Assembly (NCBI GenBank): GCA_937897875.1
Contig: CALCPD010000087.1
Coordinates: 1-42,440, forward strand
From: an uncultured Nitrosopumilaceae archaeon
GTDB lineage: Archaea; Thermoproteota; Nitrososphaeria; Nitrososphaerales; Nitrosopumilaceae
Length of the DNA: 42,440 bases
Direction of reading: 5' to 3'
This document shows, piece by piece, positions 28,781 through 34,532 of the stretch (positions are counted from its first letter, which is position 1; each line of letters starts with the position of its first letter). The position numbers were made by a program, and so were the translations under genes. The notes below the pieces were generated by a model. It was not told where the DNA came from. It ran no database searches and worked only from the letters and a program-made list of their open reading frames with translations.

Positions 28781-30532
28781 TTAAAATAAACTATTTGCTA
28801 TCTTTTTTAGAGCCATAATTTCGTCTTCTTCTTGTTTAATTTTCTTATCTATTACTCGAAGCATTGAATCATTCCAAACATGTTGGGAGAAAAAATTATG
28901 TTTTGTATTAGCTAATTCAATTTCATCATCCACTACAGTATCGTCTAGAAACTTTGTCACAATTACATCTGTAATTTTTAAAATTCTGTTATTTAATTTA
29001 AAACTATGAAATATTGGTTCTAATTTTCTTATATCTGATTTAAAATCTCCTTTAGATTCTAAAATTTTCTTATGTAGTATTCTGAAATAAACTGCTACAA
29101 AGAATAATGTCGCATATCTTTTTGTTTTATGTCCTCCTTGTTTTCCGTATTTCAATGATTTTTTTGCAAATTCTTTTACCAGATATGGATAAAGTATAAT
29201 CCTGTAATCATCTTTAAGATTTTCATTAAAAATTTGATCATACTTACTTCCTCGTGGAAGAAACTGGGATGGAGAACTGTATGACTCAGTTGGTCTCTGT
29301 TCAATACCTGCAACTAATGATTGAATTGCATCTTTGGCAACAATGACTTTTTTATGATTATCTGGTAAATAATTATTGTAAGCTGCATCTCCATTGTATT
29401 CTAATTGTTTGGATTTTGATTTTGTATCAAATGAACCTGCTTGAATTTCATAAAAATATCCACAATTTTTTAATTGTGATTTAATTGATTTGTGAAAATC
29501 CATTAACGAAACTAAATCTTTTCCTCTAACTGAATTTTGTGAATTTCTATATTTTGTAATATTGTTTTGTTCTTGTTCATCATCTGCTTTGATTATGGTT
29601 ACTGTCATCGATCCGTCCATATTTTTTGTTCTCTTTGAATGATCTAAAATTGAATTTGATGTTTGTGCACCGTTAACAATTTGTGGCGCAAAAAGCTCAA
29701 TCATATTTTCTCCTAGTTCTGTAAAATCACTAACTACTATTGTAATTCCATTATTATAAAAAAAGAATTTTCCTGGATTTGTTTGTAGAGTGTCTCTTAA
29801 TCCTTTGTTAACTGTAGTTTTAAATTGCATCCATTGTCTAATGTTTGATTCAAAGACATAGTCTCTGTTTTTACTTACAAAGTCTGTTAATTCACGTAGT
29901 TTTAAAATCCCTAAAATAGTATTTTCATGTCTAAGCATTCTTTCAAGTTTAATAGATGATTTTTTACCTGCTGCTGGTTTTTTTATTCTATCCCACAACC
30001 TTTGAATTATTTTTTCTTCATCTATGATTTCTACTAATTCATCTTCATAATCGACTTTTTGATTTGTAACATAACAGCATTTTATTTTCAAATTTTTTTC
30101 TTTAATTTTTGTAACAAGCTGAGCTAATTCTGGTCTCATTTTTGTTATATCTTTTGTGAGTAATCTCTTTGCATCCTCTTTGAATTTTGCAATTGCTTCA
30201 AGTGAATGTGATGTACCATATTTTGATTGAAATAATCTAACTGTATTATCTGAAAAATCTACTGGTAAATATGCATCAATTCCTAGATCATTTGCTCCAT
30301 CTACAATTGCATCCGCTGCATCATCTTCTGTAGCCTCAAAAACTCTTGTTAAAATCCATTGAAGAAAATTATTGCCTTTTTCTACTTCACTTTTTGAATC
30401 TTCAGCGTATTCCTGAATGTTTTCTCTAATATTTTCTGCAAATCCTTCTAGAGGTGGACTAGAATTTTTTTGTACTAATAGAGCCTGTGATCCTGGTATG
30501 TATTCTAATAGACCATTTGGATTTTGTGACAT
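28781..30532 (-). CDS. AIPR-family (abortive infection phage resistance-like) protein
   Basis: FFFYNNGITIVVSDF...IELFAPQIVNGAQTSNSI core; N-terminal GANDLGIDAYLPVDFSDNTVRLFQSKYG nuclease-like stretch. Confidence 0.85.
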   Translation of the reverse strand: MSQNPNGLLEYIPGSQALLVQKNSSPPLEGFAENIRENIQEYAEDSKSEVEKGNNFLQWILTRVFEATEDDAADAIVDGANDLGIDAYLPVDFSDNTVRLFQSKYGTSHSLEAIAKFKEDAKRLLTKDITKMRPELAQLVTKIKEKNLKIKCCYVTNQKVDYEDELVEIIDEEKIIQRLWDRIKKPAAGKKSSIKLERMLRHENTILGILKLRELTDFVSKNRDYVFESNIRQWMQFKTTVNKGLRDTLQTNPGKFFFYNNGITIVVSDFTELGENMIELFAPQIVNGAQTSNSILDHSKRTKNMDGSMTVTIIKADDEQEQNNITKYRNSQNSVRGKDLVSLMDFHKSIKSQLKNCGYFYEIQAGSFDTKSKSKQLEYNGDAAYNNYLPDNHKKVIVAKDAIQSLVAGIEQRPTESYSSPSQFLPRGSKYDQIFNENLKDDYRIILYPYLVKEFAKKSLKYGKQGGHKTKRYATLFFVAVYFRILHKKILESKGDFKSDIRKLEPIFHSFKLNNRILKITDVIVTKFLDDTVVDDEIELANTKHNFFSQHVWNDSMLRVIDKKIKQEEDEIMALKKIANSLF

Positions 30533-31476: not shown

Positions 31477-32232
31477 ATGTCTTGGTCTTTTGATTCTCAT
31501 ATTCATTTATCTGATCCTGTATATTTTTCTGAAATTAATTTTATATTAGCTCAAATGGAATTTCTTAAACTTAAAGCATGTTGTGTTTCTATGAATGTTG
31601 AAAATTCTTTAGCAACTTTATCATTATCCAAAAAAAGTAATCTTGTTTTACCTTTTATTGGAATTCATCCTGAATGTGCAAATGATGATCTTGAAAAAAT
31701 TACTAATTTAATAGAATTAAACCAAAATAATATTTCAGGAATTGGTGAAATTGGATTAGATCCTACTTATTGTAAAAATAACGATGATACTAAAAGACAA
31801 ATTCAAGTTTTTGAATCATTACTTTCATCAGCTGAAAAATTTCATAAACCTGTATCCATTCATTCTAGAAAAAGTCTTGATGATGTTTTTGAAATTATGA
31901 CTTCATATGATACACAACATGCTTTGTTGCATTGGTTTGATGGAAGTAAAAAACAACTTCAGAAAGCAATGGATATGGGTTTCTTTGTATCTTTTGGCCC
32001 TGTAATGATTTATGCTAATGATAAACAGACTTTATTATCTAAAGCAGATGAGTCAAAAATACTTGTTGAGACTGATGGGCCTGTCAGATTTTCTCGATGT
32101 TTTGAAATGAAATATGCACAGATTAGCTTTATTCCCAGTGTCATTTTCAGTGCCTCAAAAATTCTTGAAAAAACATTTGATGATATGTCGTCCTTGCTAG
32201 AAGAAAATACAAAACGTTTTCTTGGAATATAG
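31477..32232 (+). CDS. TatD family metal-dependent hydrolase
   Basis: FDSHIHLSD, IGIHPE, GIGEIGLDPTY, PVSIHSR, LVETDGP. Confidence 0.92.
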   Translation: MSWSFDSHIHLSDPVYFSEINFILAQMEFLKLKACCVSMNVENSLATLSLSKKSNLVLPFIGIHPECANDDLEKITNLIELNQNNISGIGEIGLDPTYCKNNDDTKRQIQVFESLLSSAEKFHKPVSIHSRKSLDDVFEIMTSYDTQHALLHWFDGSKKQLQKAMDMGFFVSFGPVMIYANDKQTLLSKADESKILVETDGPVRFSRCFEMKYAQISFIPSVIFSASKILEKTFDDMSSLLEENTKRFLGI

Positions 32233-32262: not shown

Positions 32263-32619
32263 GTGGATAGGATAAAGCGTCTGTCATTTGAAGTATTGGC
32301 TGATCATAAATCTAAATTCGGTGAAGACTTTGTTGAAAATAAAAAAGCCTTAAACCAAGTTTCCATTGTCCGTTCTAAAGGTCTAAAAAATAAGGTTGCT
32401 GGTTACATTACAAGATTTATCAAAAAAGAAATTCGTGAAGAAAAATTCAAACAGGATAGAAGTAGTTATGATTCATCAAATACTGAAGAACAAGAATCTA
32501 CCTTAGATGTTACTGAATCTGAAGAAACTTCTGAAACAGTTGAAGAAATCACTCTAACAAATGATGAAGTTGAGACCATTGTCCCTAAAACTAAACCTGT
32601 TGAAGAAAAAACTGAATAA
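32263..32619 (+). CDS. rps17e: 30S ribosomal protein S17e (eS17) with acidic C-terminal extension
   Basis: IKRLSFEVLADHKSKFGEDFVENKKALNQVSIVRSKGLKNKVAGYITRFIKKE; GTG start. Confidence 0.88.
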   Translation: MDRIKRLSFEVLADHKSKFGEDFVENKKALNQVSIVRSKGLKNKVAGYITRFIKKEIREEKFKQDRSSYDSSNTEEQESTLDVTESEETSETVEEITLTNDEVETIVPKTKPVEEKTE

Positions 32620-32652: not shown

Positions 32653-33426
32653 ATGATTACTATAAAATTAATCGGTGGCGCCAAAAAATCTTTTAATTCT
32701 GATCAATTACAAATTGACAAATTTGATATTTCTGTAAATGAATTACTTCAATTATTATTAAAAACAAAACCTGAAAACACTTCTAAATTTGATGTTGAAA
32801 ATATCTTAATTGCCATTAATGGTTCCGATTCTTCTGCAATTAATGGAAAAAATACAATTGTACATGATGGTGACATTGTAAGTATTATTCCTGTAATTCA
32901 TGGTGGTTCCCCTAAAAAATTATTTTTTGACATAGACAAAAAACAAATACAGATATTGGAAATCCATGGCCAAAAAACAATTGATGTCAAATTTATTGAT
33001 GATTTAAGAATAAAATATCCAAAAATTAAATTTCAAGCTGTATCAAGTAAATTCATTCTTAATTTGTCTCATCTAAAAAAAATTCTATCAATTTCAATCA
33101 ATGCTGATAAAAATAATATTTTATTATCTAATAAAATTGAAACTGATATTTTAATGCGTTTTGCAATAACTTTACAAATTTCTAATGCAATTTCATCTGT
33201 TGGGATTAAACCTACTAGTAATTTTATTTTAATTGCTATTGGAAACAAAAAATCTTTTGCTTCTATCTATTCTGAATTATCTCCTTTATGTATAAATTTA
33301 TTTTTAAAAAATAATGATTTATTTCTAAAAAAACATTTCAATATTTCAAAAAAGCATATTGATACTGTATATTCTAAAACTCCACTGGAAGATATTTTGG
33401 TAGAAAAGGCTTCTATTCTAATCTGA
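32653..33426 (+). CDS. ThiS/MoaD-like ubiquitin-fold domain fused to Cgi121-like KEOPS subunit
   Basis: Residues 1-85 beta-grasp pattern ending DGDIVSIIPVIHGG; C-terminal half KIETDILMRFAITLQISNAISSVGIKPTSNFILIAIG...LEDILVEKASILI matches Cgi121. Confidence 0.8.
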   Translation: MITIKLIGGAKKSFNSDQLQIDKFDISVNELLQLLLKTKPENTSKFDVENILIAINGSDSSAINGKNTIVHDGDIVSIIPVIHGGSPKKLFFDIDKKQIQILEIHGQKTIDVKFIDDLRIKYPKIKFQAVSSKFILNLSHLKKILSISINADKNNILLSNKIETDILMRFAITLQISNAISSVGIKPTSNFILIAIGNKKSFASIYSELSPLCINLFLKNNDLFLKKHFNISKKHIDTVYSKTPLEDILVEKASILI

Positions 33427-33942
33427 CATACTGCGTTTAGTTTTTTCAATACTAAGTATATCTGAATTTTTTAATATTGAAATACCAGTAATAATACCTA
33501 ATATCTCAATTAAAATTATTTTATCTGGATGATCTAATGAAACTTTATTTTTTATTCCATTTGCAATTTTTGTAATTATTTCTTTACTTGAAATTTCAGA
33601 ATTTCTTTTTTCAATTAATATTCTGTATGATTCCTTTTCTTCAATTTGATTTTTTATGCTGGAAATCATTTTTTCAATTTCATCTATGTTTGTCTCAACA
33701 ACTTTTTGAATTGGTATTACTCTTAAACAATATCTGATACTCCATGGTTCATCTAGTAACATTTCTTTCATTTTTCTAACTACTTCAATTGGATCTAATT
33801 TTGTTTCAACCGTAATAATTCCCGACATATTGCTTACTGCAATTTTAACATCTGAATCCCCTAATTCCTCTAAAATATCTATTAGTTCATCCTCAGTGTC
33901 TCCTTCTAAATGTCTGGCGCACGTTATTATCAAATTCATCAT
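33418..33942 (-). CDS. THUMP domain-containing protein (Tan1-like)
   Basis: NLIITCARHLEGDTEDELIDILEELGD...SIRYCLRVIPIQKVVETNIDEI. Confidence 0.82.
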   Translation of the reverse strand: MMNLIITCARHLEGDTEDELIDILEELGDSDVKIAVSNMSGIITVETKLDPIEVVRKMKEMLLDEPWSIRYCLRVIPIQKVVETNIDEIEKMISSIKNQIEEKESYRILIEKRNSEISSKEIITKIANGIKNKVSLDHPDKIILIEILGIITGISILKNSDILSIEKTKRSMSD

Positions 33943-34532
33943 ATCATAATGTCCTCTGCTTTTAATGCCCCTTCTCTAATGATCTTAATTTTTTCATTCT
34001 CTATTTCAATTATTGTTGATTCTCCTTTACTTGTAATTGTTCCTCCATTTAGAAACACATCATAATTTTTAATATTTTTTATACATTCATCTGGATTTGT
34101 ATATGATGAATTTCCAGAAATATTTGCACTAGTTCCTACTAATAATTTACATTTTTCTAATAATTTTAAAGTACATTTAGAATCTGGAATTCTTACTGCA
34201 ATTTTATTTTGTAATTTTAATGACTCTTTTAATTTTTGATCTGTTAATGTTAAAATTAATGTTAGTGGACCTGGCCAATATTTTTTTATGATTTTTTCAG
34301 TAAATTTATCAATTATTGTGATTTCTTTTACAATGTCTAATGAATATGCTAATACTGGTAATGATTTTATTTTATCCCTTGATTTAATTTCATAGATTTT
34401 ATTTACTGAATTTACATTGTATGGATTACATCCTATACCATATACTGTATCTGTTGGAAATACTACCACCCCACCTTTTTCAATTATTTGAGATATTTTT
34501 TCAATACCGTCATTATCACAATTCACTTTCAA
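33939..34532 (-). CDS. Threonylcarbamoyl-AMP synthase (Sua5/YciO/YrdC family)
   Basis: GGVVVFPTDTVYGIGCNPYN...KSRDKIKSLPV...KYWPGPLTLIL...VGTSANISG. Confidence 0.95.
   Translation of the reverse strand: MKVNCDNDGIEKISQIIEKGGVVVFPTDTVYGIGCNPYNVNSVNKIYEIKSRDKIKSLPVLAYSLDIVKEITIIDKFTEKIIKKYWPGPLTLILTLTDQKLKESLKLQNKIAVRIPDSKCTLKLLEKCKLLVGTSANISGNSSYTNPDECIKNIKNYDVFLNGGTITSKGESTIIEIENEKIKIIREGALKAEDIMI

Follow-up and report, generated by a model that had tools for sequence, protein, structure and literature searches.

The window, i.e., the whole 42,440-nucleotide stretch of contig CALCPD010000087.1 from an uncultured Nitrosopumilaceae archaeon, carries on its plus strand (32,653–33,426) a gene in which a ubiquitin-like (Ubl) domain is fused to Cgi121, a subunit of the KEOPS complex. 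The gene opens with an ATG, a short distance after an in-frame stop, and encodes 257 residues plus a stop codon, the stop-to-stop frame being 260 aa. Residues 1–85 (32,653–32,907) constitute a Urm1/ThiS-type β-grasp domain with the C-terminal end IIPVIHGG, the last three residues of which form the internal His83-Gly84-Gly85 tail (HGG; 32,899–32,907). A short linker, SPKK (residues 86–89; 32,908–32,919), which varies from 2 to 7 residues among orthologues, leads into the Cgi121 domain (about residues 90–257; 32,920–33,423). On the same strand, the gene is preceded by a TatD-family DNase (31,477–32,232; profile match) and ribosomal protein S17e (32,263–32,619; PF00833, E = 3.7e-16). Two convergent minus-strand genes follow: a THUMP-domain protein (33,418–33,942; PF02926, E = 6.2e-8), whose 3′ end shares a nine-base overlap with that of the fusion gene, and Sua5/TsaC (33,939–34,532; TIGR00057, E = 1.6e-49), the threonylcarbamoyl-AMP synthase of the first step of t6A formation. 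The four neighbor assignments are also supported by synteny; the order histone-TatD-S17e-Ubl-Cgi121, facing THUMP-Sua5/TsaC, is conserved in the majority of the families compared.

The original prediction, which placed a β-grasp Ubl in the N-terminal half and a Cgi121-like domain in the C-terminal half of this protein, with the Gly-Gly internal, is borne out by profile and structure searches alike. Residues 14–85 match Pfam ThiS (PF02597) above its curated cut-off (E = 1.4e-8, or 2.4e-9 when the half is searched in isolation), while the Pfam Urm1 match is weaker and below cut-off (E = 0.0024). The C-terminal half matches NCBIfam NF011465, “KEOPS complex subunit Cgi121” (E = 1e-42; 145.9 bits vs. 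a cut-off of 40), and barely exceeds the threshold of Pfam CGI-121 (PF08617; E = 8.9e-6; 26.3 vs. 25). An AlphaFold model computed from 91 related sequences comprises two domains, with a mean pLDDT of 93.8 and a pTM of 0.68; HGG is the only part with a pLDDT <50. Foldseek matched the N-terminal domain to Urm1/SAMP1 structures 2k9x, 2l52 and 3po0; the best matches of the C-terminal domain were Cgi121 in yeast, human and archaeal KEOPS (4ww7, 8up5, 7kjt), with a top E of about 1e-8.

The residues by which Cgi121 of Methanocaldococcus jannaschii contacts the tRNA CCA tail, namely Gln71, Ile72 and Gly80 together with Lys56 and Met60 (PMC7718258), are partially matched in the alignment: the first three correspond to Gln175, Ile176 and Gly184 of the fusion, of which Gln175 and Ile176 are invariant among 56 distinct fused proteins and Gly184 is found in 55, whereas the positions of Lys56 and Met60 are taken by Asn160 and Thr164. 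It should be noted that the protein, as encoded, lacks the C-terminal Gly-Gly of Urm1, ThiS and SAMP proteins. Gly85 is followed by 172 residues, and only cleavage would give it such a terminus.

The architecture itself is not new. The fusion is a comparative-genomic finding of 2010, when Makarova and Koonin reported it, apparently cotranscribed with S17, in all Thaumarchaea then sequenced (PMC2948915); the gene in the window, which shares the architecture, lineage and S17 neighbor, is a member of that set. The original prediction left undecided whether the fusion had been characterized: it had been published on comparative grounds, and no experimental characterization was found in the literature searched. 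The passages of the 2010 article that were consulted do not discuss the invariance of the internal Gly-Gly or the lack of free Ubls. Among the nearest solved Ubls is the Urm1 of Sulfolobales (4wwm), which has the HGG tail in common with the fusion and, according to Makarova and Koonin (PMC2948915), also an S17 neighbor. In contrast to the fusion, in which Cgi121 follows the Gly-Gly, Urm1 of Sulfolobus acidocaldarius (PMC4569737) and of S. islandicus (PMC12625751) is a free protein ending at that motif.

Relatives were sought in 400 genomes of the class and found in 341; f1 denotes the family of the window (the Nitrosopumilus family), and f2 onward the other families of the class. The nearest named relatives, from Nitrosopumilus, share 82% and 79% identity with the window. 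Conservation of the Gly-Gly, whose absence in orthologues would have counted against the original prediction, as would failure to detect either domain, proved to be complete: His83, Gly84 and Gly85 are unchanged in 56 of 56 distinct fused proteins, although pairwise identity in this set has a median of 50% and falls as low as 25%. Averaged over positions, the most common residue reaches a frequency of 1.0 in HGG, 0.69 in the remainder of the Ubl and 0.57 in the linker, the domains lying at 0.68–0.69. Since HGG is encoded by 20 synonymous codon combinations across 64 loci, some of which are repeat retrievals, the constraint acts on the protein. A constraint at the DNA level, such as the overlapping ATG or a Shine-Dalgarno sequence of the unfused form, is ruled out for fused genes by this free variation of codons. 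The residues past the Gly-Gly differ in kind and number among orthologues, and no downstream protease signature was seen in them, a point against processing at this site. Invariant yet disordered in the model, HGG looks like a recognition site rather than a packing element. In S. islandicus, the Urm1 substitution H81R leaves urmylation largely intact (PMC12625751); this tolerance suggests that the invariant histidine may do something else in ammonia-oxidizing archaea.

Comparison across the class indicates that the fusion derives from separate genes. It is nearly universal in f1, sporadic in f3 (G109, G132, G136) and absent from the other families compared, a distribution to be set beside the 2010 report of its presence in all Thaumarchaea then available (PMC2948915). 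Outside f1 and part of f3, Ubl and Cgi121 are separate same-strand genes, mostly adjacent and often overlapping, and in most of these families the Ubl gene lies directly 5′ of Cgi121. Ubl genes ending exactly in HGG-stop occur in f6, f7, f9, f10, f14, f18, f20, one f2 genome and several f3 genomes, and adjoin Cgi121 in f6, f7, f9, f10, f14 and part of f3. Unfused Ubls with 1–9 residues past the Gly-Gly are found in f2 genus g23, f5, f8, f12 and two f3 genera; in g23 (L063, L076, L081, L119), the Ubl ends in HGG-Cys-Ile/Leu or longer, a cysteine directly following the Gly-Gly in most cases. Several unfused families show an out-of-frame overlap between the HGG codons and the ATG of the gene that follows (cATGGAGGTTAA; CATGGAGGTTAA), so that a small indel can join the two genes. 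In a Cgi121 tree whose deepest branches are modestly supported, the f1 and f3 fusions form separate supported clades, with split relatives nested within that of f3, which argues that the fusion arose at least twice.

Cgi121 is not the only partner of this Ubl. In f15, it is fused to a phosphoribosyltransferase, which is followed by Cgi121 (L067:582-1439, G282); in f18, a free Ubl overlaps an unfused gene that resembles the phosphoribosyltransferase in sequence, again followed by Cgi121 (L073:1985-2825, G001). The Gly-Gly is retained across all fusion partners, i.e., Cgi121 (f1, f3), the phosphoribosyltransferase (f15) and, in f1–f3, the E1 enzyme. The E1 of f1 and most f3 genomes sits behind a second, N-terminally fused Ubl, whose AGG runs into E1; in most cases, the junction in f1–f3 reads AVAGG with S or A as the next residue.

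The E1 enzyme family needs a free C-terminal glycine. E1 (PF00899) was found in 72 of 80 genomes and in all 23 closed f1 genomes tested. The recognized ThiS-type Ubls are internal in every Nitrosopumilus-family genome examined, being confined to Ubl-Cgi121 and Ubl-E1; searches of f1 with PF02597, TIGR01687 and PF09138 gave no clear free third Ubl, only a few short-frame matches at E ~0.02 or worse. It follows that a free Gly-Gly substrate for this E1 would have to be generated by a protease, and that f1 must either release at least one of the two Ubls or use an unrecognized substrate. Candidate proteases are at hand. JAMM genes are present in 78 of 80 genomes and in 43 of 43 f1 genomes, most of the latter having two. 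Of the two enzyme classes named in the original prediction, JAMM is represented in the genome of the window by two genes with an intact catalytic motif (HSHP...SxxD), the stronger of which has desampylase as its best NCBIfam match (E = 1e-13, below the cut-off of that family); E1, as general as it is in closed f1 genomes, is missing from this particular assembly (see below). Capped Gly-Gly motifs are associated with the stronger JAMM class in 7 of 7 capped vs. 4 of 9 free lineages (Fisher p = 0.034), a comparison that is only suggestive, with lineages classified by hand and kinship ignored, and which was therefore dropped as proof of processing. The JAMM proteases could also act on substrates other than Ubl fusions.

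Taken together, these observations make it somewhat probable, in our opinion, that the fusion is a linear precursor, cut by a JAMM metalloprotease after Gly85 to release a Urm1-like modifier and Cgi121. The modifier would constitute the N-terminal half of a single translation product. Cleavage, presumably by a JAMM enzyme, would yield a Ubl with a free His-Gly-Gly, to be adenylated by the cell's E1, itself a Ubl-E1 fusion, and then used in conjugation or sulfur transfer; the other product, Cgi121, would enter KEOPS and bind the CCA tail of tRNA in t6A synthesis. That the invariant HGG is unstructured, forms the free C-terminus of unfused relatives and persists with three different partners suggests a functional terminus awaiting exposure. 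The original prediction had offered cleavage and a fixed scaffold as two options. The invariant disordered HGG, the HGG-stop of unfused relatives, the variety of partners, the lack of a recognized free Ubl and the presence of JAMM genes lean toward cleavage.

JAMM cleavage is the economical candidate and has a precedent in Caldiarchaeum subterraneum, where CsJAMM cuts SAMP precursors (PMC6043591), while Rpn11 exposes the Gly-Gly of pro-ubiquitin, which in its uncut form is unusable by the E1 of that organism (PMC5654768). The systems are alike in having residues past the Gly-Gly, which in the case of C. subterraneum ubiquitin have to be removed by JAMM/Rpn11 before E1 acts (PMC5654768, PMC6043591). 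They differ in that the extension of CsUb is a nine-residue peptide, whereas here a folded KEOPS subunit would have to be cut off.

Ubiquitin-ribosomal protein fusions, Ub-L40 and Ub-S27a, are known from eukaryotes. Like the present fusion, they place a Ubl ahead of a translation-related protein, with an internal Gly-Gly; since the Ubl family, the partner and the proteases are all different, this is an analogy only.

The main rival, still live although we consider it rather unlikely, is that the Ubl remains covalently attached and serves KEOPS in docking or regulation, HGG being an exposed binding tail or a hinge. Retention of the fusion almost throughout f1, together with the preserved tRNA-binding residues of Cgi121, is consistent with such a role, as is a pTM of the value obtained with two confident domains, which is as expected of a flexible two-domain protein. 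A functional tether would fit the genomic context just as well, given that the partner is itself part of KEOPS and that the gene faces TsaC and adjoins the TsaC/Sua5 and THUMP genes in most families compared. However, a hinge need not be His-Gly-Gly in every one of the fused proteins, and Ubl fusions to a phosphoribosyltransferase and to E1 likewise keep the Gly-Gly. Moreover, if neither Ubl is cut, a conserved E1 is left with no recognized ThiS-family substrate. It is improbable that the fusion is neutral, i.e., that an overlapping Ubl and downstream gene were joined by a small indel and the joint product merely tolerated; the overlap of the ATG with the HGG codons offers a ready route, fusions arose at least twice, and one f1 genome (G106) is apparently split by a frameshift, but this accounts for the origin of the fusion and not for the invariance of HGG thereafter, as an idle tail would drift. 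In G106 (L059/L127), the Ubl and Cgi121 overlap in different frames near an A-run, which may reflect a genuine split or an error in sequencing. Production of Cgi121 from an internal translation start was also considered and is not general, since 37 of 64 fused loci lack an in-frame ATG, GTG or TTG within 22 codons past the Gly-Gly.

Cleavage of the precursor can be extended, more tentatively and at slightly less than even chances, to the whole system: the Nitrosopumilus family would have no free ThiS-type Ubl, both of its Ubls being N-terminal fusions with a conserved Gly-Gly, and JAMM proteolysis would be the gate that activates the modifier. If so, supply of the modifier would be coupled one-to-one to synthesis of KEOPS and E1 in these abundant ammonia oxidizers. 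What the present comparison adds to the known fusion is the invariance of HGG, the split-gene ancestry with at least two fusions and differing partners, and the exclusively internal position of the recognized Ubls in the Nitrosopumilus family. It turns the finding of 2010 into a testable question for an entire ammonia-oxidizing family, namely whether a protease frees the Ubl of Cgi121, that of E1 or both of them, or whether E1 has an unrecognized substrate; the answer bears on how Ubl precursors and tRNA-modification proteins came to be linked.

The apparent lack of E1 in the genome of the window (G000), which has no PF00899 match, deserves comment, as the main E1 is likewise missing from six other f1 genomes that retain HGG. 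Loss of E1, which would leave HGG conserved in the absence of activation, was rejected. In G066, the gene order is hisF-hisI-thrC-[Ubl-E1]-S-layer-like gene (L114:3264-12519). None of the seven E1-less genomes contains a full-length thrC, G128 having just a piece of it at the end of a contig; hisF lies 0–1.3 kb from the contig end in G031, G084, G071 and G105 and about 1.6 kb from it in G128, and is absent from G000 and G126. The hisF-thrC-E1 region is absent from the assembly of the window, which is best explained by a recurrent contig break, and claims of gene loss for the thrC/Ubl-E1 region, which lies beside a large S-layer-like gene, need care in metagenome-assembled genomes. Two minor features of the window may be added: S17e (32,263–32,619) has an acidic C-terminal tail of ~50 residues, apparently little conserved among relatives, and the minus strand at 28,781–30,532 encodes a 583-residue AIPR protein of the abortive-infection type (PF10592, E = 4e-58; PADLOC AbiU, E = 4e-47).
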